Of a DNA stretch of 64,000 nt, positions 988-33,041 are shown piece by piece. Every line of letters starts with the position of its first letter. Position 1 is the stretch's first letter. Below the pieces are notes generated by a model. The model was not told the origin of the DNA. It saw only the letters and a program-made list of their open reading frames with translations, and did no database searches. The stretch comes from Chitinophagaceae bacterium PMP191F (GTDB lineage: Bacteria > Bacteroidota > Bacteroidia > Chitinophagales > Chitinophagaceae). A program made the translations under genes and the position numbers. The stretch spans positions 124,001 through 188,000 of the forward strand of contig LGYU01000007.1 of NCBI GenBank assembly GCA_001302245.1, written 5' to 3'.

Positions 988-1626
988 TCAACTGTATTGC
1001 TGTTGTAATAATAAAGGCACCGGGTTAAAGCTGCTGTCCGGCAACAACAGGTCGCTGGTATCGCCCAATACTTCATCTACCAGTCCAAAATCTTTTGCCT
1101 GTACAGCATTCATAAAACGATCTCTTCTGAATGCATCTTCAATTTCCTGGCGCGTGTGATTGGAGTGCCGGCCTATCAGGTGGAATACCTGGTTTTGCAA
1201 TCTTTCCTGTTCACGGTAAGCGATGCCTACATCTTCTGTATATCCTTTGGCACCTCCGCCGGTTGGGTGCATATGAATGGTGCTGTGTGCCAGTGCATAC
1301 CTTTTACCGGCAGCGCCTGCTGTAAGTATTACAGTGCCCATGCTCATAGTAGCGCCCATTGCTACGGTAGAGACCGGCGATTTCAGCATTTTCATAGTAT
1401 CATAAATGGCAAGCCCGGCATATACCTGGCCGCCGGGACTGTTGATGTACATGCTGATGGTGCTATGATTCTCATTGTCAAGGTACAATAGTTGTGCTAC
1501 TACCAGGTTAGCTATCTGGTCGTCAATACCCGTTCCCAGGAAAATGATCCTTTCTTTCAGCAGCAGGCTATAAATATCAAATGCACCCCGGGTGGAGTTA
1601 TCAATAACGGTGGGAATAAGTGCCAT
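988..1626 (-). CDS. clpP: ClpP-type serine protease subunit
   Basis: The product (212 residues) is a ClpP peptidase subunit, which forms a barrel fed by an AAA+ unfoldase such as ClpX. The N-terminal loop ([13 protein letters not shown]), [15 protein letters not shown] and [11 protein letters not shown] are typical. The catalytic triad appears intact: Ser95 in GATMSMG, His120 in IHMHP and Asp169 in RRDRF. The His motif reads HMHPTGG where housekeeping ClpP has MIHQPLGG, so this looks like a paralogue rather than the main ClpP. It begins one base after the stop of the anti-sigma-like gene, and no clpX or tig lies beside it, unlike the usual housekeeping locus. The context suggests a protease dedicated to the sigma/anti-sigma pair upstream; that link is inference. 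Confidence 0.88.
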
Positions 1627-1627
1627 G

Positions 1628-1876
1628 TTATTTAAAAATATTATGGATGCAGGTTGAAAAATCTTTGTTGTTCATCAGTTGCCGGTGCAGGTTTTCCAGT
1701 TTTCTCTTCCGGGCCCACCAGCGTATCAGTAGATGTGCTTTGCGCTGGTGACGTACTTTTTCTTCCAGCACAGGATCAATGATTATGCGTGCCTGGAAAA
1801 CCAGCTTGTCTGCGATGCTCATTTTATTAAAAAGGAAGCGATCGGTTTCCTGTACCTCAAGCAGCGATGTTCTCAT
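1628..1876 (-). CDS. Small anti-sigma-like protein
   Basis: I place the start at ATG 1876 (82 residues, MRTSLLEV...). A TTG at 1915 would give 95 residues but lies deep inside the sigma gene. The start overlaps the 3' end of the sigma factor gene by 20 bases, which suggests translational coupling. The N-terminal half ([26 protein letters not shown] in outline) follows the pattern seen at the start of many anti-sigma proteins: a short helix, G/K-x-M/L-s-x-x-x-x-x-F-x-x-x-L/I-x-x-D-P. There is no Cys-His zinc motif and no membrane segment; the middle is very basic (RWWARKRK). It could be a soluble mini anti-sigma or an adaptor for ClpP. No family is recognised with certainty. Confidence 0.6.
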
Positions 1877-2387
1877 AAGCTTCTGATTTTTTAATGTGTT
1901 CACGTACTTTCTCAAGACACTTGTATTTCTGCACGGTAGCAGAATGTTCAGTTTTGTAATTGAATGCGTTTGCTATCCGCTGCATTGACCATCGTTGATA
2001 ATAAAAAGCCTGGAGCAATTCCATGCACCTGTTGCCTGCTTTTTGCAGGCTTTGCACTACTGCATTTCTTTGTTCATTACGAGATGGAAAGAATTCTTCC
2101 GGTATATCAATCACATCATTCATGGTATCCAGTGACACAACATGATGATCACCTTTTATTTTTTTGATCCAGAGAATACGGGCAATGCCTGCAATGTATG
2201 CCTGTGGGGTAGTACGGATGTTTAACGTATTGTCTGCCTGCTTCTCCATATAGATAAGCAGGGCATCGTGGAAAATATCTTTGGCAGCATTCAGATCACC
2301 TCCTGCACGCTGTATCCATGCGGCAAAAATGGGGAAAGTTTGCCGGTAAATGATTTCCAGCCATTTATCGTCATCATGTATTGTCAT
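1857..2387 (-). CDS. ECF-type RNA polymerase sigma factor
   Basis: A protein of 176 residues with the layout of an extracytoplasmic-function sigma-70 factor. Region 2 spans roughly residues 15-85 (KDIFHDALLIYMEK, then QAYIAGIARILWIKKIK, the usual -10 binding helix). Region 4 is about residues 115-170, ending in a helix-turn-helix (QRIANAFNYKTEHSATVQKYKCLEKVR) of the form common in Bacteroidota ECF factors. It heads a three-gene operon with the anti-sigma-like protein and ClpP. No FecR anti-sigma or SusC/SusD genes follow, so it is not a typical nutrient-uptake ECF system. A divergent TPR histidine kinase starts about 200 bases away and could share regulatory sequence. Target promoters are unknown. 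Confidence 0.87.
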   Translation of the reverse strand: MTIHDDDKWLEIIYRQTFPIFAAWIQRAGGDLNAAKDIFHDALLIYMEKQADNTLNIRTTPQAYIAGIARILWIKKIKGDHHVVSLDTMNDVIDIPEEFFPSRNEQRNAVVQSLQKAGNRCMELLQAFYYQRWSMQRIANAFNYKTEHSATVQKYKCLEKVREHIKKSEAYENIAA

Positions 2388-2584
2388 ACCTGAACGTTTT
2401 AATAGTAAGTGTCAGAAACAACCTGTATATCACCCGGTTGTTGAAATAAAATCTGTCTTTGCAAAAGGTACCACTTTTTTCAGCAGCGGTATTTACAGCT
2501 ACTCACCCGGAACCGCTAATGGCGGGCGGAAACCGCCAACCAATCATTCACCGGATATTTAATATATAAGTGCCTAACTTTAAA

Positions 2585-4714
2585 ATGCGGAAATACCTAT
2601 CACCGCCTAATCAGTATAGCATGCGTATAGCCAGTATAATAACCGGAATGCTGTTGATGTGGAATATCTGTGCGCAGGCACAGGATCCGCATTATATGGA
2701 TTCTTTAAAAAGGCAACTGCCGTTGTTAAAAGATTCAGCCAAGGCATATTGTCTTAACAGAATAGCTGCCGGTTATGTGGAAGCCTGGCAGGTACATGCT
2801 GATTCGGGTCTGGTCTATGCAGAAGCAGCTTATAAATATGCAAAAGAGAATGGATACAAACAGCCTTTGCGCAGAGCTGCTTTTCTCTGTGCAAAAGTAT
2901 CATTACAGCTTTCAAGGGTTAATGACGGGCTGAAGTATCACAAGGAGGTAGTACAGCTTGCTGAAGAAGCTGGTAATAAACAGATAATAGCAGTGGGTAT
3001 GCGTGGTATCGGGGAAGCGTTATGGTATCGTGCAGATTTTGACGATGCTATTGAAATGATTAAACAAGCCATTGCTCTTTTTGAACAATTTGGCTGGAAG
3101 CGCGAAATATCACAGTCGCAGCTGGCTATCAGCAATATCTATGGCGATCAGGGTAATTATGAAAAGGCTTTTGAATGGAGCCGCAAGGCGATGGAATATA
3201 GTTCCAGTCTTCGTGATACGCCTATCATTACACTGGTGCTGGTTGAAATGGGCAAGCTCTACCGGAATATTGGTGATTATGAAACGGCGATGGACTATTA
3301 CCGGAGAAGCTATGCCATGAAACCACCGGAAGGTATCTGGGCATACAGGTATCTGCAAGCCAATATGGGTGATCTGTATTGCGATCTGAAAAAATATGAC
3401 TCTGCATACAATTTTCTTGAACAGGCTTTTGCCGGACATGCACAGGGAAAAACAGCGCGCATGAAGATGGGACGATATTTCCTGGAACAGAAAAAGTATG
3501 ATTCTGCACTGACTTATTATACAGGGCTATATCGCGATCTGAAGGGCACCGGTGAGAATAATATCTATATCATTTCAATGCTGGGGTTGTGCAATATATA
3601 CATGGAAACAGGTAAGCTGCCCCAGGCGTTGCAGTATGGAAAGGATGCATTACAGTTGGCTCAGCAGAAAAACGCTAAGATCCTCGTTTGTGATGCCAGT
3701 AAGCTGCTGTACATGATATATGAAAAAATGCAGCAGCCCGGTTCTGCTTTTCTGTATTATAAACAGTATGTAAATACCAAAGATTCTCTTATCACTGATC
3801 AGTTCAAAGGCAAGCTATATGAGTTCCGGCGTATTGCAGATGATGAAAAGAAACAGGCGCAGATAGAATTGTTAAAAAAAGAAAGCCTGATCACTGCACA
3901 AAAACTGAAAGGCAACAGGTTTCAGCGCAACCTGCTGGTAGGTAGTATCCTGCTGCTGGTGCTGATCAGTTCTTTCCTGGTATGGAATATTTCACTGAAA
4001 CGTAAAAATGAAAAACTGCGCAACGAGCGGATCACCGCTGCACTGGAGCATAAGGCTACAGAACTGGAAATGCAGGCATTGAGGGCACAGATGAATCCGC
4101 ATTTTATTTTTAACTGTTTAAGCTCCATCAACCGGTTTATTTTAAAAAATGAATCCGAAAAAGCCTCAGACTACCTGACCCGTTTTTCACGGCTTATCCG
4201 GTTAGTACTGATCAATTCGCAGAAACCATTGATTGCGCTGGAGGATGAGATTGAAATGTTACGATTGTATGTGGAAATGGAACAGCTACGGTTTAAGAGC
4301 AGTTTTGATTACAGCATTACCTACAATAACAGCATACAACCCGGGAACATTGTAGTACCTCCGTTGCTGTTACAACCGTTCTGTGAAAATGCTATCTGGC
4401 ACGGGCTGATGCATAAAGAAGGACATGGCGAACTGCGTATCACCTTCACCATGCAGAAAGAAACATTGATCTGCGTCATTACCGACAACGGTGTAGGCCG
4501 TGCCCGGGCAGCCCAGATCAGAAACCATTCTACCGAAAAAGTAAAGTCGTTGGGATTAAAGCTTACTACTGAACGGCTTGCGATTTTTAATGAGAGCAGG
4601 GAAGTAGAAACTTTTTATGATATTGAGGATATTAATGACGAGGGAGGCAACATTTCCGGAACCCGCGTGACTCTTAGAATAAAGTATAAGGAAAGTATTG
4701 AAGAACCCGTTTGA
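2585..4714 (+). CDS. TPR sensor histidine kinase, LytS type
   Basis: A secreted-sensor kinase of about 709 residues. The frame extends to a GTG at 2570, but I prefer ATG 2585; ATG 2621 is also possible, since the signal peptide proper is MRIASIITGMLLMWNICAQA. After it come tandem TPR units over about residues 40-440 (e.g. GNYEKAFEWSRKAMEY, GDYETAMDYYRRSYAM), a coiled region, one membrane segment (LLVGSILLLVLISSFLVW), and a cytoplasmic His_kinase domain. The phospho-His lies in QMNPHFIFNCLSSI and the ATP-binding N box is PFCENAIWHGL. The TPR part should lie in the periplasm and bind a ligand or protein. Its LytTR partner starts 10 bases downstream. Confidence 0.9.
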   Translation: MRKYLSPPNQYSMRIASIITGMLLMWNICAQAQDPHYMDSLKRQLPLLKDSAKAYCLNRIAAGYVEAWQVHADSGLVYAEAAYKYAKENGYKQPLRRAAFLCAKVSLQLSRVNDGLKYHKEVVQLAEEAGNKQIIAVGMRGIGEALWYRADFDDAIEMIKQAIALFEQFGWKREISQSQLAISNIYGDQGNYEKAFEWSRKAMEYSSSLRDTPIITLVLVEMGKLYRNIGDYETAMDYYRRSYAMKPPEGIWAYRYLQANMGDLYCDLKKYDSAYNFLEQAFAGHAQGKTARMKMGRYFLEQKKYDSALTYYTGLYRDLKGTGENNIYIISMLGLCNIYMETGKLPQALQYGKDALQLAQQKNAKILVCDASKLLYMIYEKMQQPGSAFLYYKQYVNTKDSLITDQFKGKLYEFRRIADDEKKQAQIELLKKESLITAQKLKGNRFQRNLLVGSILLLVLISSFLVWNISLKRKNEKLRNERITAALEHKATELEMQALRAQMNPHFIFNCLSSINRFILKNESEKASDYLTRFSRLIRLVLINSQKPLIALEDEIEMLRLYVEMEQLRFKSSFDYSITYNNSIQPGNIVVPPLLLQPFCENAIWHGLMHKEGHGELRITFTMQKETLICVITDNGVGRARAAQIRNHSTEKVKSLGLKLTTERLAIFNESREVETFYDIEDINDEGGNISGTRVTLRIKYKESIEEPV

Positions 4715-4724
4715 AAAACCAGCC

Positions 4725-5471
4725 ATGATCAACGCTGTTATTATTGATGATGAACCTCATTGCTGTGAGGTGCTGGCATTGCTGCTGGAAAAGTATTGTC
4801 CTGATGTGCGTGTGGAAGCGATCTGCTATTCGGCGCAGGAGGCATTGAGGGTACTTACCTCCGGCAATCCGCAACTGGTGTTTATGGATATTGAAATGCC
4901 GCATATGAATGGCTTCCAGTTGCTGGAACAATTGCCGCGTGTCAATTTCGGACTGATCTTTACTACCAGCTATGATCAGTATGCTATAAAAGCCATCCGC
5001 TTCAGTGCGCTGGATTACTTATTGAAGCCTATTGACCGGGAAGAGTTGCAGATGGCTGTACGAAAAGCCATACAGCGATTGCAATCGCCCCTGCCCCAGC
5101 AACTGGAAATATTATTACAGAAGTTTCACCAGGCTACGGGGCAGATACAGCGTATTGCATTGCCCACAATGGAAGGGCTGCAGCTGATCTCGCTGGATTC
5201 TATTATCAGTTGTACATCCAGCAGTAACTATACCATTATTGCATTGAAAGATACTTCTAAACTGGTGGTATCCCGCACACTGAAAGAAATAGAAGAGATG
5301 CTGGAAGAGCATACCTTTCTGCGGGTACATCATTCACATATTGTAAACCTGAATGAAATAAGACGATACATCAGGGGAGAAGGTGGTAATCTGGTAATGA
5401 GTGACGGATCTTCCATAGATGTTTCGCGCAGCAGAAAAGATGCATTATTGAAAAGACTGTTGCCAAAATAG
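4725..5471 (+). CDS. LytTR-family response regulator
   Basis: I chose ATG 4725 (248 residues, MINAVIIDDEP) over the TTG at 4698, which would overlap the kinase gene. Residues 1-120 form a receiver domain with acidic pair DD, phospho-acceptor Asp55 (LVFMDIEMP) and conserved Lys101 (DYLLKP). The C-terminal 100 residues are a LytTR DNA-binding domain (SSNYTIIAL, FLRVHHSHIVNLNEIRRYI, GSSIDVSRSRKDALL). It is the partner of the TPR kinase upstream and is expected to act as a transcription factor binding direct repeats. Its target could be the TPR protein gene downstream, but no evidence of a binding site was found. Confidence 0.92.
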   Translation: MINAVIIDDEPHCCEVLALLLEKYCPDVRVEAICYSAQEALRVLTSGNPQLVFMDIEMPHMNGFQLLEQLPRVNFGLIFTTSYDQYAIKAIRFSALDYLLKPIDREELQMAVRKAIQRLQSPLPQQLEILLQKFHQATGQIQRIALPTMEGLQLISLDSIISCTSSSNYTIIALKDTSKLVVSRTLKEIEEMLEEHTFLRVHHSHIVNLNEIRRYIRGEGGNLVMSDGSSIDVSRSRKDALLKRLLPK

Positions 5472-5578
5472 TGATACACTATAGCCTTTGCAGACTACTC
5501 ATTCACACCTGCAAACTGCTCATTCCTCATTGATATTTACATGCCGGCCAAATAGTTTTATCTTAAATATAGTCAGCC

Positions 5579-12236: not shown

Positions 12237-13427
12237 GTGGCTGATATCTTTCAACAGGTATCAGCCATTTTACTTGAATACCTTTTCCGCGTTTGTCCCC
12301 GCTTCACCGCACCGGTGTACTTTTCTTTTCTGCTTCTGCTGATATTTTGTTGTTTTGTTACTGTATTGGAGAAACAACCCGCAATATCACTTTATTGGAA
12401 ATGCCAGCTTGCCGGATGGTCGGTGGCAGCCTTGTATTGGGGATATACAGGGTATATAGCACCGGGATTTAACCTGTGGCTGGCCATTCTTTACTTTGTT
12501 TCAGATGTGGTATTGTACATTGGTATTACACACCTGTACCGCACGGTTGCATTGCGTTACCAATGGCATTTATTACCGGCAGGCAAACTGGTTTGGATAT
12601 TGCTGCCTGCAGTACTGTTGCTGGCGCTGCTTTCTACAGTGCTTACCATACTGAAGATCTATTATTTCAGAAGATGGTTGTCACCGGGGTTTGATGTTTC
12701 GTTTTACAACTTCTTTATACAGAACCGGTTGAGTGTTTTTGTAGCAGGTATAAGACTGATGTCTATCTGGTTACTGGCTTATCATTTGTATCATTATGCA
12801 CGGCGTGACATTATTAGTACAAAAGAAAATGCAAGACTGGCAATCATCAACAGAGATATACAACTGAACAACTTATCGTCGCAGCTTAACCCGCATTTCC
12901 TGTTCAACTCACTGAACAATATAAAATGGCTGGTAGCAGAAAATCCTGTTGCGGCAAGACGTGCTATTGATCTGCTGGCCGACCTGTTACGCACTTCGCT
13001 GAACAACAGGGATACGGTACTGGTACCGCTGCACGAAGAAATGGATATGGTAAAGGACTATCTAGAGCTGGAACAGTTCAGGCTGGAAGAAAGATTGCAG
13101 GTAAAGATCAATATCAATGAATTGCTGCTGACGATCCCGGTTCCGCGACTGTGTATACAAACGCTGGCGGAGAATGCTATTAAGCATGGTATTGAAAAAC
13201 AAAAGGCCGGTGGTCTGCTGTATATAACAGTTGAAAGCAATGAGCACGCACTGGTGATCATTGTACGGAATACCGGGCTGTTGCAAAATGTATTGTCACC
13301 AACAGGTGTAGGGTTAAGTAACCTGCAAGAGCGCCTGCAATTGCAGTATAAAGGAAAAGCTGGTTTTTCTATTGCGGATAATGCTGATCATACCGTAGAA
13401 GCCATAATTACAATTCCGCTGACATGA
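12237..13427 (+). CDS. Membrane sensor histidine kinase, LytS type
   Basis: The frame opens with GTG 12237 (396 residues), but that codon lies in a terminator hairpin, so the real start may be downstream, for example GTG 12315. Four hydrophobic segments follow (YFSFLLLLIFCCFVTVL, LAILYFVSDVVLYIGI, LVWILLPAVLLLALLSTVL, VFVAGIRLMSIWLLAYHLY). The cytoplasmic part is a His_kinase domain with phospho-His in SSQLNPHFLFNSLNNI and an ATPase N box LAENAIKHGIEKQ, then GVGLSNLQERLQL. It senses through its membrane part, as there is no large periplasmic domain. It overlaps its LytTR partner by four bases (ATGA) and a CocE-type hydrolase gene follows. Confidence 0.85.
   Translation: MADIFQQVSAILLEYLFRVCPRFTAPVYFSFLLLLIFCCFVTVLEKQPAISLYWKCQLAGWSVAALYWGYTGYIAPGFNLWLAILYFVSDVVLYIGITHLYRTVALRYQWHLLPAGKLVWILLPAVLLLALLSTVLTILKIYYFRRWLSPGFDVSFYNFFIQNRLSVFVAGIRLMSIWLLAYHLYHYARRDIISTKENARLAIINRDIQLNNLSSQLNPHFLFNSLNNIKWLVAENPVAARRAIDLLADLLRTSLNNRDTVLVPLHEEMDMVKDYLELEQFRLEERLQVKININELLLTIPVPRLCIQTLAENAIKHGIEKQKAGGLLYITVESNEHALVIIVRNTGLLQNVLSPTGVGLSNLQERLQLQYKGKAGFSIADNADHTVEAIITIPLT
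12238..12271 (+). terminator. Rho-independent terminator
   Basis: A perfect 9-bp stem (TGGCTGATA 12238-12246 with TATCAGCCA 12259-12267) is followed by TTTTA. It lies 26 bases after the lipoprotein stop and overlaps the first possible start codon of the next gene. Confidence 0.7.
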
Positions 13428-14137
13428 AGAAAATAAGGGTATTGATAGCAGATGATGAACGGGCAGCGCGGCAGGAGTTAAAAAGACTGTTGCAGCCATA
13501 TCCTGATTTTGAAGTGGTGGCAGAAGCAGGCAATACAGATGATGCTGCCATGCAAATTGCAGCATTACACCCCGATCTGCTTTTCCTGGATATACAAATG
13601 CCTGAAGGATCGGGCTTTGATCTGCTGCAATCATTGGAAGAGGTCCCGGAAGTGATCTTTGTTACTGCATTTGATCAGTATGCTGTGCAGGCTTTTGAAA
13701 CCAATGCGTTGGATTACCTGCTAAAACCGATTCGTGATGAAAGATTTGCAAAGACAATTGAGAAATTCAGAAAGCAGTTTGCTGCAAAAAGTATAAACAC
13801 TTCATTGCAGAAGCCCCAACAGGTTTTTATAAAAGACGGGCAGCATTATTATTTTGTACCATGGAATGATGTTTACCTGATTGAATCTTTGGATAACTAT
13901 GCGCGGCTGCATTTTCATAATAAAAAAGCGCTGATCAAAAGTTCGCTGAATCAGTTGGAGCAAAAACTAAGTGAACACGATTTCTTTCGTGTTAACAGGG
14001 CGCAACTCATCAATACGCGTTTTATACAGCATATACATGCCATGACTGATGGTAAGATTGAAGTGACACTGCAAAACGGCGAACGCGTAAAACTTTCAGA
14101 AAGACAGTCTGCCAGGTTTCGTAGTCAGCGCAGCTAA
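13424..14137 (+). CDS. LytTR-family response regulator
   Basis: A 237-residue regulator: receiver domain with acidic pair D10/D11, phospho-acceptor Asp56 (LLFLDIQMP) and Lys101 (DYLLKP), then a LytTR DNA-binding domain (WNDVYLIESLDNYARLHF, FFRVNRAQLINTRFIQHI, KLSERQSARFRS). The start codon overlaps the kinase stop in ATGA, so the pair is translationally coupled. The CocE-type gene begins 27 bases downstream and is probably in the same transcript, making it a candidate output or associated function of this pair. Confidence 0.93.
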   Translation: MKKIRVLIADDERAARQELKRLLQPYPDFEVVAEAGNTDDAAMQIAALHPDLLFLDIQMPEGSGFDLLQSLEEVPEVIFVTAFDQYAVQAFETNALDYLLKPIRDERFAKTIEKFRKQFAAKSINTSLQKPQQVFIKDGQHYYFVPWNDVYLIESLDNYARLHFHNKKALIKSSLNQLEQKLSEHDFFRVNRAQLINTRFIQHIHAMTDGKIEVTLQNGERVKLSERQSARFRSQRS

Positions 14138-22619: not shown

Positions 22620-23708
22620 ATGGCACAAACCAGTATATTTAGCCCTGTGAAGAAAAATGTTTATATTCTTTTACACATACTTGGCTGGCTGATATTGCTT
22701 TCGGGTAATGTGTTTGATGAGGCACATAACCCCGGCAAAGATGTTGTAAAAGGCATTGCCGATTCTGGTATACCCAAACCGGTATATTATGTCATTTTTG
22801 AGTTGTGCTACCTGTCTGTAATGCTGACCGGTTTTTATGGTTTTTATTTCCTGGTGGGGCCTGCTGTGTTTGTACTCCGGAAACCGGTTATGGCAATACT
22901 ACGTATTGTTGTTGTGTTGATGGCAATGGTATTGGTGCGTTATGTAGCAGAATTTCATATACTGCTGCCGCTTCTGAAAGTGCACAATTACTTTGGCAGA
23001 ACACCGGAGGTATGGTGGTACATTCAAAACTGCATTGGTTACTCCTATATATCCTGTTTGTTTGGTTTACTGGTGTATTTTATCATGGCATCACAAAAAG
23101 CAGAACGGAAACGCAAAGAAACAGAAAGAGAAAAAGTGCAGGCCGAGTTGTCATTCCTGCGTTCGCAGGTGAATCCGCATTTTCTGTTCAATACCATCAA
23201 TGATATCTATGCGCTGACGTACCAGAAAAATGACCTGGCGCCGGAAGCTCTGCTCAAATTGTCGGGTATTCTCCGGTACATGTTGTACGAAGGCAACAGG
23301 GATACAGTATCGCTGAAAAAAGAGCTGGAATACATGGATGACTATATAGCCCTGCAACGTATAGGGCTGAAAGACCAGTTGCAGCTACAGGTACAGGTAG
23401 ATGGTGATGCCGGCGAACAGCAGATCCCTCCATTATTACTGATCCCGTTTGTTGAAAATATATTTAAACACGGTGTGCTGAATGATGCGGAACACCCGGC
23501 ACGTTTGCACATTGGCATTACTGACCGTCAACTTACGCTGGAGTGCAGTAACCTGGTAAAAAAACAACAGAAAGATGCTGTTTCAGGTATAGGAATTTCG
23601 AATGTAGAAAGAAGATTGCAGCTATTGTATCCTGGTAAACATACCTTTGTAGTACGGCAGGAAGCCAGTGTTTTTCATTGTTCATTATTGCTGCAAACAG
23701 GCAGGTGA
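22620..23708 (+). CDS. Membrane sensor histidine kinase, LytS type
   Basis: A 362-residue kinase starting at ATG 22620. Four hydrophobic segments occupy residues ~15-155 (YILLHILGWLILLSG, LCYLSVMLTGFYGFYFLV, ILRIVVVLMAMVLVRYV, YSYISCLFGLLVYFIM). The His_kinase domain has SQVNPHFLFNTINDIYAL with the phospho-His, PFVENIFKHGVL as N box, and SGIGISNVERRLQLLYPG. Its LytTR partner begins 15 bases after its stop. It is divergent from the HEGAH gene (170-base gap), which may be part of its regulon. Confidence 0.92.
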   Translation: MAQTSIFSPVKKNVYILLHILGWLILLSGNVFDEAHNPGKDVVKGIADSGIPKPVYYVIFELCYLSVMLTGFYGFYFLVGPAVFVLRKPVMAILRIVVVLMAMVLVRYVAEFHILLPLLKVHNYFGRTPEVWWYIQNCIGYSYISCLFGLLVYFIMASQKAERKRKETEREKVQAELSFLRSQVNPHFLFNTINDIYALTYQKNDLAPEALLKLSGILRYMLYEGNRDTVSLKKELEYMDDYIALQRIGLKDQLQLQVQVDGDAGEQQIPPLLLIPFVENIFKHGVLNDAEHPARLHIGITDRQLTLECSNLVKKQQKDAVSGIGISNVERRLQLLYPGKHTFVVRQEASVFHCSLLLQTGR

Positions 23709-23723
23709 TCTAAACAGCCATCT

Positions 23724-24428
23724 ATGATCCGTTGTATTATTGTGGACGACAAGCCGCTGGCTATTGATATCTTAAAAGAATATGCTTCTAAAATATCGTT
23801 TTTAGAACTGGTACATGTTACGCAAAACCCGTTGAACGCACTGGAATATATACGCAGTCACCCGGTTGATCTTGTTTTTCTTGATATACAGATGCCTGAG
23901 CTGAATGGCATCCAGTTCATGAAAATACTCAATGGTGCCTGTAAGGTTATACTAACTACTGCCTATAGTGAATATGCGCTGGAAGGGTATGAGCATGATG
24001 TAACAGATTATCTGTTGAAACCAGTTTCTTTTGAACGTTTTTACAGGGCTGCTGAAAAAGCCAGGAAGGTCATTGATGCAGCAACTGTTGCCACTGTCCC
24101 TGAAAATGCAGCTATTGAAAATCATGGTCTGTTTGTAAAAACAGAGTATAAGATCCAGCGTATTGAATTTGCATCTATATTGTATGTGGAAGCACGACAG
24201 AATTATGTAGTGATCGTAACCACCGGTGGGCAGGTGATGAGCCTGCAAAGTATCAAAAGCATTGAAGAAAAGCTGCCGGGCAACACTTTCATGCGTGTTC
24301 ACAAATCATATATCATATCCCTGCACAAAATAGACACCATTGAACGCAGCAGGATCTTTATTGGTGAGGCGGTGATACCAGTTGGTGACAGTTACCGGGA
24401 GGCCTTCTTTAGCCGGCTGAATACCTGA
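23724..24428 (+). CDS. LytTR-family response regulator
   Basis: A 234-residue regulator. The receiver has acidic pair D8/D9 (VDDKPLA, with Lys where DDEP is usual), phospho-acceptor Asp54 (LVFLDIQMP) and DYLLKP. The LytTR domain follows (SILYVEARQNYVVIVT, FMRVHKSYIISLHKIDTI, IPVGDSYREAFF). It is the partner of the LytS kinase upstream. The next gene, an OmpR-type regulator on the same strand, begins about 120 bases later with separate control likely. Confidence 0.93.
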   Translation: MIRCIIVDDKPLAIDILKEYASKISFLELVHVTQNPLNALEYIRSHPVDLVFLDIQMPELNGIQFMKILNGACKVILTTAYSEYALEGYEHDVTDYLLKPVSFERFYRAAEKARKVIDAATVATVPENAAIENHGLFVKTEYKIQRIEFASILYVEARQNYVVIVTTGGQVMSLQSIKSIEEKLPGNTFMRVHKSYIISLHKIDTIERSRIFIGEAVIPVGDSYREAFFSRLNT

Positions 24429-31129: not shown

Positions 31130-31822
31130 TTATCCGATAGCAGAGAACAGTCTTTCGCGGTAGTTGTCGCTTACCGGCAGCGTTTTGTTGCCAATGGTAA
31201 CCGATTTACGCGAAACAGTAGTGATCATCCGTATGGGCGCAATGTACGAGCGGTGGATACGGATAAACTCATTGCCCTGTAAAATATCCTCAAAATGCTT
31301 CAGGTTGTGCAGTATCACCAGTGGCGAAGGTGTGCTGGCAAGGTAGATCTTGGTGTAATCTTTAAAACCTTCCAGGTACAGGATATCTGTATAGAAGATC
31401 TTATACAGCTTGTGCGAGGCATTGATAAAAAAGTAATCGCGGGCTTTACTGGTTTTATTGTTCTTATATTCCAGGTAATCTTTGAAGCGGTTCACCGAAC
31501 TCATAAATACTTCGAAAGAGATAGGCTTTACCAGGTAGTCCAGTGCTTTCAGCTCAAAGCCATTCAGTGCAAACTCTGTATATGCAGTAGTGAAGATCAC
31601 CTCAGGTTTATGATGCAGTGACTTAAAGAAATCAATACCGTTGATATCAGGCATATTAATATCCAGGAACATCAGATCAACTTTGCCACTCTCCAGCAAT
31701 GGCAATGCCTGCATCGGTTCTTCAAACTTTCCTGCAAGTTTCAGGTAGGGGATCTTGCTGATAAAATTCTCCAGCAGATCAAGAGCCAGGGGCTCATCGT
31801 CTATTAATAGGCAATTAATCAC
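31130..31822 (-). CDS. LytTR-family response regulator
   Basis: A 230-residue regulator, with acidic pair D8/D9, phospho-acceptor Asp54 (LMFLDINMP), DYLVKP, and a LytTR domain (DILYLEGFKDYTKIYL, FIRIHRSYIAPIRMITTV, LPVSDNYRERLF). Its start overlaps the stop of the LytS gene by 8 bases. It is the last gene of the Kelch-DUF4907-LytS-LytTR operon. Confidence 0.93.
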   Translation of the reverse strand: MINCLLIDDEPLALDLLENFISKIPYLKLAGKFEEPMQALPLLESGKVDLMFLDINMPDINGIDFFKSLHHKPEVIFTTAYTEFALNGFELKALDYLVKPISFEVFMSSVNRFKDYLEYKNNKTSKARDYFFINASHKLYKIFYTDILYLEGFKDYTKIYLASTPSPLVILHNLKHFEDILQGNEFIRIHRSYIAPIRMITTVSRKSVTIGNKTLPVSDNYRERLFSAIG

Positions 31823-33041
31823 GTTTGAGGATGATTTTTAAGTTTACAATGTAGGACTGCTCATAATGTACGATATCAAGCGAATAAGTGTTGGGGTACA
31901 GCAGATCCAATCTTCTCCTGGCATTCTTTAACCCAATGCCGCCTTGTTCAAAATTATTATTTTCTGATATGGGATTACTGGTGACCATAGTTAATGTTTT
32001 TTCAAAAACATTAATGTCAATCGTAATGTGTGAGCCCTTTGTGTAACTTAATCCGTGTTTAAATGCGTTTTCTATAAACGTTATGAGTAATAGCGGTTCT
32101 ATAAACAAACCCTGCGTATCGCCCTGCACACGGTAATCTATCTGCACTTTTTTTGACACACGCATCCGCTGCAGGTGGATATAGTTAGAGATATAGTCAA
32201 TATCACGTGCAAGCTCAATCTTTTCGGCACTGCTGTCGTATAGCATGTACCGCAGCATTTCTGAAAGCTTCAGGATGGCTTTTTCAGTCTGGTCCGACCG
32301 GGCATGCGCCAGCGAATAAATACCGTTGAGGGTATTGAACAGAAAATGGGGATTGATCTGCGATTTTAAAAACTTCACTTCTGCATCCAGCTGGGCATTT
32401 TCAAATGCTCTTTTTTCATCCTGGTTCCTGATCAGCGAAAAGGCCAGGTAAATGAAACCGCTCATTAAAGTAAGCAGGAAGAAGGAGGATATAACATTAC
32501 CCAGCGTCATCAGCACCAGCCTGTCCGGCAAACCCAGGGTATGTGGTTCATTGATGCGCATAAGCAGTTCCGGGCTGCTGATAGGCGCCCTGTCCGGAAA
32601 ATCTTTTAGCAATTCAAAGGTGTCCTTCACCACGGGCGTACGCCTGTGAATGGGAACCAGTTGAAATGTTTCGCGGGGAATGCTGATAAACCTCCTGAAA
32701 AAGTGATTCTCAACAGAAAGTTGTTGTGAAAAAATGAACAGCAGGCAAACCAGCAACATCAGCAGGTAAGCCGTGATCTTCTTTTTTGCAAAAAAACGGG
32801 GGATCAGGAAATAATAGTGGAAGTAGAAATAAGCCACCAGCACCAGCTTATTGATCAGCTCTTTAAACAGGAACTGTTCATCTACTATCCTGATACGATA
32901 AATGAAAACCGGCAGCAGGAAGAAAAAGCACCAGGCTGTAATGTGAATGAGAATGATCAGCAGCAGGTCAAATTTGCCGGTATTTTTTTTGAACCCGAAC
33001 AGGTAATGCAAAAAATTATGGGGTTTCTCCTGTGTGGGCAT
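31815..33041 (-). CDS. Membrane sensor histidine kinase, LytS type
   Basis: A 408-residue kinase. N-terminal membrane helices are FDLLLIILIHITAWCFFFL, LVLVAYFYFHYYFLIP, AYLLMLLVCLLFIF and ISSFFLLTLMSGFIYLAFSLI. An extracytoplasmic loop of roughly 60 residues (~110-165) lies before the last helix. The His_kinase domain has SQINPHFLFNTLNGIYSL, TFIENAFKHGLSYTK and GIGLKNARRRLDLLYP. It sits between DUF4907 and LytTR genes in one operon, so those envelope proteins may supply or modulate its signal. Confidence 0.92.
   Translation of the reverse strand: MPTQEKPHNFLHYLFGFKKNTGKFDLLLIILIHITAWCFFFLLPVFIYRIRIVDEQFLFKELINKLVLVAYFYFHYYFLIPRFFAKKKITAYLLMLLVCLLFIFSQQLSVENHFFRRFISIPRETFQLVPIHRRTPVVKDTFELLKDFPDRAPISSPELLMRINEPHTLGLPDRLVLMTLGNVISSFFLLTLMSGFIYLAFSLIRNQDEKRAFENAQLDAEVKFLKSQINPHFLFNTLNGIYSLAHARSDQTEKAILKLSEMLRYMLYDSSAEKIELARDIDYISNYIHLQRMRVSKKVQIDYRVQGDTQGLFIEPLLLITFIENAFKHGLSYTKGSHITIDINVFEKTLTMVTSNPISENNNFEQGGIGLKNARRRLDLLYPNTYSLDIVHYEQSYIVNLKIILKRD

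Follow-up and report, generated by a model that had tools for sequence, protein, structure and literature searches.

An ECF-type sigma factor gene, a gene for a very small protein and a clpP gene follow one another on the minus strand of the window (i.e., the whole stretch of 64,000 nucleotides from Chitinophagaceae bacterium PMP191F that was analysed). The question raised by this locus is whether the three genes belong together and, if so, what a protease gene does behind a sigma factor and a putative anti-sigma factor. The locus comprises the following features:

1857-2387, minus strand: ECF-type sigma factor gene (176 aa; open reading frame and translation)
1628-1876, minus strand: small gene, encoding a bare anti-sigma-like domain (82 aa)
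988-1626, minus strand: clpP, encoding the genome's third ClpP (212 aa; motif HMHPTGGG; catalytic residues S95, H120, and D169)
1857-1876, minus strand: overlap of the sigma stop with the small-gene ATG (20 bases)
2406-2434, minus strand: predicted promoter of this sigma factor, GGTGATAT-N15-CACTTA (47 bases ahead of the sigma start codon)

A preliminary description of this DNA had read 988-2387 as one tight three-gene unit, and the ORF coordinates confirm both the 20-base overlap and a gap of a single base between the small-gene stop and the clpP ATG. The evidence assembled below indicates that the unit is very probably an operon for a sigma factor, its anti-sigma factor and an autoregulated ClpP.

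Conservation of the three-gene order

The order was looked for from the sigma, small-protein and ClpP sides and was found each time across Bacteroidota, well outside the strain in which it was noticed. On the sigma side, all 80 loci examined in named Bacteroidota have the sigma factor, the small gene and clpP in this order and on one strand; the loci were chosen by sigma similarity as the 80 best among 364 candidates. The 20-base overlap, judged by the aligned start, was present in 68 of the 80 named loci, and clpP started no more than 100 bases from the end of the small gene in 75; the five wider gaps were 110 to 184 bases long and, in L186, 1,081 bases. The named loci cover 12 families by name (one represented only by a MAG under the name Bacteroides), including Chitinophagaceae, Sphingobacteriaceae, Fulvivirgaceae, Saprospiraceae, Cyclobacteriaceae, and Prolixibacteraceae. 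A sigma search of 394 genomes of the window's family gave 32 top matches (E ≤ 7.3e-43), all 32 in three-gene units, followed by a gap from E 7.3e-43 to 1.1e-38.

Searches with the small protein led to the same arrangement. Among 59 relatives, the 82-aa protein turned up in three further genera besides the window genome, always between a sigma gene and clpP, and a four-sequence profile run against the 394 family genomes yielded 30 strong loci and one weaker locus that was read, with the sigma gene before and clpP after in all 31 (one sigma frame and one clpP frame are broken, and one clpP is cut at a contig end). When the searches were extended to the order and the phylum (298 and 395 genomes), 14 of 14 further stand-alone small proteins among the loci read lay within the unit; in two of these, L072 and L073, the alignment covers 75 and 69 of 85 columns, respectively, and the overlap is missing. 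Eleven weaker matches that were read proved to be the starts of longer proteins beside a sigma factor, with no clpP within the fetched flank. On the ClpP side, 17 of 394 genomes of the order presented a ClpP of the window's type (type A) at E ≤ 1e-55, and all 17 were in the unit; one of them (L292) is accompanied by a divergent small protein (score 22.7). Several loci occur in more than one of these sets, which are not independent, and some loci are imperfect: clpP is broken in L019 and L187, the sigma frame is broken in L026, L030 is cut by a contig end, and the small protein of L033 is short (68 aa). The proposal that a sigma factor, a mini anti-sigma factor and a dedicated ClpP form one functional unit is thus supported by linkage from three sides, and the refuting condition set in the preliminary description, an order confined to this strain, is contradicted.

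An arrangement that is due to chance or is merely local was ruled out by this three-sided linkage, found mostly with the exact 20-base overlap. No other neighbour family occurred in more than 14 of the 80 named loci (the commonest in 14, at scattered positions, the next in 7), in a survey covering frames of at least 90 aa in fetched flanks of up to ~4 kb. Neither this survey nor a reading of the genome's AAA_2 matches revealed a dedicated unfoldase beside the operon. In L186, a Mucilaginibacter locus, the wide gap (4418-5500) is ~1 kb of DNA with two short frames, and clpP is still the next clear gene. At a looser threshold (E ≤ 1e-28), sigma matches, the unit's own sigma included, were present in 358 of the 394 family genomes.

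The sigma factor and the small protein

The window's sigma factor matched the NCBIfam sigma70-ECF model at E 2e-7, which is below the model's cut-off, and had no match to a Pfam sigma family; region 4 was matched by no Pfam sigma model, and the window's sigma was not among the 24 of 30 members of its family that matched Pfam Sigma70_r2 at E ≤ 0.01. A profile of the sigma factor gave no match up to E 0.01 among PDB sequences. The AlphaFold model presented two helical domains (mean pLDDT 83.3), and ECF sigmas account for its two best PDB matches and for most of the ten best, with a best E of 2.9e-3 and none at 0.001. Taken together, the family matches and the two-domain model agree with an ECF sigma, which consists of regions 2 and 4 only in ~160-200 aa.

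The preliminary description had given the 82-aa protein neither a zinc motif nor a membrane helix, and this holds across 81 operons: the small proteins are 82-92 aa long, the HxxxCxxC zinc motif is present in 0 of 81 (the window's included), and no membrane helix was found in any of the 81, the highest mean hydropathy over 19 residues being 1.28. The AlphaFold model (mean pLDDT 91.7) has four helices (2-15, 21-33, 35-68, and 71-81), which corresponds to the class I anti-sigma layout of a three-helix bundle and a fourth helix. A Foldseek search of this model against the PDB up to E 10 returned four chains only, all of them anti-sigma factors (RslA twice, RskA, and RsiW), with E values of 2.8-6.1 and structural Z scores of 5.1-5.3 that a helical bundle can reach by chance. 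In the corresponding profile search of PDB sequences, RslA appeared at E 1.2 among ten non-significant matches, and Pfam gave only scattered matches for 79 small proteins (best E 0.0026, to an unrelated family; best zf-HC2 match 0.061, in 2 of 79). No proven anti-sigma factor was thus matched at a significant level.

A stronger indication came from the proteins encoded beside sister sigma factors. In one hhalign comparison, columns 1-75 of the small protein aligned with a profile of 20 N-termini of such proteins at a probability of 98.0 and E 1.7e-13; the 20 comprised the neighbours of 19 sister sigmas, a subset of the family sigma list, and one pair from the window's own genome chosen by a weak match. 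The proteins after the 19 sister sigmas (18 of 353-380 aa and one 148-aa frame) are probably anti-sigma factors themselves, judging by position and layout. The anti-sigma reading of the 82-aa protein, as first proposed from its N-terminal pattern, thereby gains homology support and, from the fold, weaker support, and the small protein most likely corresponds to just the part that holds the sigma factor. A covariation scan of sigma factor and small protein had an effective depth (Neff) of 65 and was underpowered; its top pair, N143-L6, hints at a contact of helix 1 with region 4.

According to PMC7406223, the class I anti-sigma domain is built of four helices, which hold regions 4 and 2 of the sigma factor, and such a domain is found nearby in only 6% of Bacteroidetes ECFs; a text search for "clp" in the main text gave no occurrence. 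The small protein resembles class I anti-sigma factors (RseA, RskA, RsiW, RslA, and ChrR) in presenting a four-helix domain beside an ECF sigma, and differs from them in being the domain only, without membrane helix, sensor domain, or zinc motif. The sister systems of related bacteria likewise have a related sigma factor with a homologous N-terminal domain directly downstream; there, however, the domain forms the start of a longer protein that also contains a hydrophobic stretch. Such a longer anti-sigma-like protein follows the sister sigma in the 19 loci read (L302-L320). Two proteins scanned (L049:2236-3345 and L050:3069-4148) carry a Trypsin_2 protease domain behind the hydrophobic stretch, and in six loci (L036-L040 and L063) proteins of ~700 aa that begin with the same anti-sigma-like domain follow another sigma factor; one protein of this type, scanned as a 547-aa piece, had no Pfam match.

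Upstream motif and ClpP

The sequence GGTGAT is present in 76 of 78 regions upstream of the operon (4.3 expected) and GGTGATAT in 53 of 78 (0.39 expected); three named loci with fewer than 260 upstream bases were left out, and GGTGAT is missing in L126 and L146. A bipartite motif (GGTGAT, 16-18 bases, then YAC and two of A/C/T) was found for 71 of the 78 operons. In the controls it turned up in 1 of 75 regions that follow clpP, in none of 77 reverse complements, and in 1 of 75 regions situated 600 bases farther upstream. The spacing from GGTGAT to CAC was 17 in 68 of 70 instances, and the distance between GGTGAT and the presumed start codon of the sigma gene was 41-54 bases in 71 of 76. This motif is predicted to be the cognate promoter of the sigma factor.

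Scans for further sites suggest that the circuit serves mainly itself, with ClpP as its main product. The pattern GGTGAT-N16-18-CACWWW matched 32 times in the window genome, as compared to 11 times for a reversed control; among the 30 sites that were scored, in the 17-base register only (two sites had no locus), the operon's own site (38.0) was the only one within the range of the operon motifs (23.5-45.1), and the next best (15.3) lies inside a coding frame. A stricter pattern applied to 46 unit-bearing genomes gave 33 sites, as compared to 6 for the control; of the 30 that were read (the other three, without a locus, were not scored), 17 precede the unit, one other scores well, and 12 score poorly. 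On the 78 known upstream regions the looser pattern recovers 56 and the strict pattern 30; with the strict pattern, the promoter of the unit itself was hit in no more than 17 of the 46 genomes. Because even the looser pattern catches only 56 of 78 known sites, we hold the odds of ClpP being the main output lower than the scans by themselves would suggest, and regard it as probable on balance. The one other site that scores well is a second promoter-like copy in genome G087 (L259, around 1501, minus strand) before a small frame, which we take to encode a SnoaL-like protein; the small protein in the unit of the same genome is shortened (68 aa).

The operon ClpP matched Pfam CLP_protease at E 7e-60 and is one of three ClpPs found in the genome with the Pfam model at E 0.001. 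The other two adjoin on contig C7, flanked by a trigger-factor-like and a ClpX-like gene (named by reading); the housekeeping clpX and tig neighbours are absent from the operon, as remarked on earlier. The His motif of the operon ClpP had been described as deviating, and it does so (MHPT, as compared to LHQP and IHQP in the other two), yet the catalytic His is kept. An MHP-type motif is present in 61 of 81 operon ClpPs, and S95, H120, and D169 in all 81, in keeping with the Clp protease fold and its triad. A dead ClpP is unlikely, since the triad is intact throughout. Positions 60 and 112 are invariant in the 81, and positions 58, 80, 88, 90, and 110 are variable; we take these positions to belong to the unfoldase docking pocket.

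In a tree of 66 ClpPs, those of the operons are spread over about four positions, of which the type-A clade is supported at 100/99; at the other three they group with the housekeeping ClpP of Sphingobacteriaceae, next to the housekeeping ClpP of the one lineage concerned, and with the ClpP2 type. For this tree, long branches and a bootstrap that had not settled were flagged. In the sigma tree, operons of types B and C are nested among type A on forks with SH-aLRT values of 85-92, and the fourth kind branches apart; this tree stems from a short search with SH-aLRT only, and the nesting forks are unstarred. Near-identical rows and re-fetched places were omitted from both trees. Because ClpPs of several lineages appear on the one tree and nesting appears on the other, ClpPs seem to have been swapped or recruited several times into one slot.

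Protein distances were compared as well. Over all 81 operons, the distances of sigma factor and small protein correlate at 0.79 and those of sigma factor and ClpP at 0.49; within type-A operons both values are 0.80, all three pairs lying between 0.72 and 0.80, and within the other operons all three lie between 0.87 and 0.89. Since the correlations are equal within type A and within the others, the difference seen over the 81 operons mostly reflects ClpP swaps. The occupation of the same slot by ClpPs of different lineages argues that ClpP activity as such has been selected.

Proposed circuit and alternative explanations

ClpP receives its substrates from an unfoldase, and anti-sigma factors such as RseA and RsiW are removed by ClpP proteases. 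Among its strong AAA_2 matches, the genome of the window has one ClpX, one ClpC, and one ClpB (by reading); the ClpX and the ClpC presumably carry ClpP-docking loops. The explanation that we favour, with somewhat more confidence than doubt, is a self-contained ECF sigma/anti-sigma circuit that supplies auxiliary ClpP on demand. The 82-aa protein would act as a brake made of the sigma-holding domain alone, encoded overlapping its sigma factor; upon loss of the brake, the sigma factor would transcribe its own operon from GGTGAT-N17-CAC, yielding more sigma factor, brake, and ClpP. The operon ClpP would join the cell's ClpX or ClpC and thereby add or replace proteolytic capacity, and Clp proteolysis may close a feedback on the sigma/brake pair, a step for which we see the chances as evenly balanced. 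The simplest substrate would be the brake, which resembles the ready-cut fragments that ClpP proteases destroy in other systems; with a sensor part missing from the brake, control would most likely act on how stable the brake is.

Removal of other anti-sigma parts provides a precedent for such a step. The removal of FpvR20 and of RsgI fragments is reported to be ClpP-dependent; these systems likewise involve ClpP proteases and a sigma-holding part, but as described there the cellular ClpP acts on a larger or membrane-bound anti-sigma factor after other steps. In the operon, by contrast, a brake that resembles such a fragment is encoded alongside a ClpP.

A first alternative is a backup or homeostat circuit, in which housekeeping Clp would normally destroy free sigma factor, so that the sigma factor builds up when Clp is blocked or swamped and turns on the spare ClpP; restored proteolysis would turn the circuit off again, as with PopR and ClpP3P4 in Streptomyces. 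According to PMC12607617 and PMC9765437, PopR is a substrate of ClpP1P2 degradation and activates the clpP3P4 genes that serve as a backup; it is thus likewise a dedicated regulator of a second ClpP system, although it is described there as a transcriptional activator, with no sigma/anti-sigma pair mentioned in the passages on it. A further precedent for a Clp-degraded regulator is the ECF sigma AntA, a ClpXP substrate according to PMC7142297. The appearance of ClpP as main output in the regulon scans fits such a circuit, as do the spare ClpPs of several lineages, which, with the changed active-site neighbourhood of type A, would suit a working and perhaps inhibitor-insensitive replacement. 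On the other hand, the AA end that is the degron of AntA was found in only 1 of 81 sigmas (the window's own), and this circuit alone leaves the constant presence of the brake unexplained; as an account of the operon we consider it rather improbable, even though a latch, in which the brake is degraded, and a backup circuit, in which the sigma factor is degraded, both fit the observations. Single A ends were present in 12 of the 81 sigmas and in 1 of the 81 small proteins. A degron shared by the sigma factors or by the small proteins was sought at the C-termini of the 81 operons only, and none was conserved.

Proteolysis could also lie outside the switch altogether, with a sigma factor that answers some stress and a ClpP that is one effector among others. 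Autoregulation by itself does not speak against such a plain stress regulon, since ECF operons commonly autoregulate (PMC7142297); the lack of a conserved C-terminal degron, the share of known sites that the scans miss, and the second good site in G087 all agree with it. It is harder to reconcile with the scores of the 30 sites in the window genome, with the lack of any other conserved neighbour, and with a brake that has no sensor part, and we see it as a minority possibility. Finally, the trio could have stayed together merely by shared descent, with a ClpP unrelated to the sigma pair. All three protein distances correlate, in type A as in the other operons, as this would predict; but the flanking neighbours vary while the trio persists, ClpPs of other lineages occupy the same slot, and the order is kept in 12 families, which makes this explanation highly improbable.

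The self-contained circuit thus consists of parts of known kinds; what appears new is their fixed combination, with a bare brake and with ClpP as the likely main output. A full-text literature search gave no recognisable description of such a unit, which the main ECF classification may list as a group, and no account of how the spare ClpPs of Bacteroidetes are controlled. A bolder version, which we put forward only tentatively and think less likely than its absence, would be a phylum-wide stand-alone feedback in which the ClpP produced under the sigma factor also serves to release that sigma factor, and the bare brake is a pre-cut Clp substrate. If this is true, the operon would sense and set Clp capacity without a membrane sensor or an upstream protease. 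In any case, the operon presents an anti-sigma-like domain in minimal form and gives the cell a private route by which a second ClpP can be made, and the motif with its fixed spacing is a possible Clp-stress reporter in Chitinophaga, Pedobacter, or Mucilaginibacter.

Elsewhere in the 64-kb window, four two-gene pairs were observed (2570-5471, 12237-14137, 22620-24428, and 31130-33041), each of which we take to consist of a sensor-kinase-like gene and a gene for a LytTR-type response regulator.
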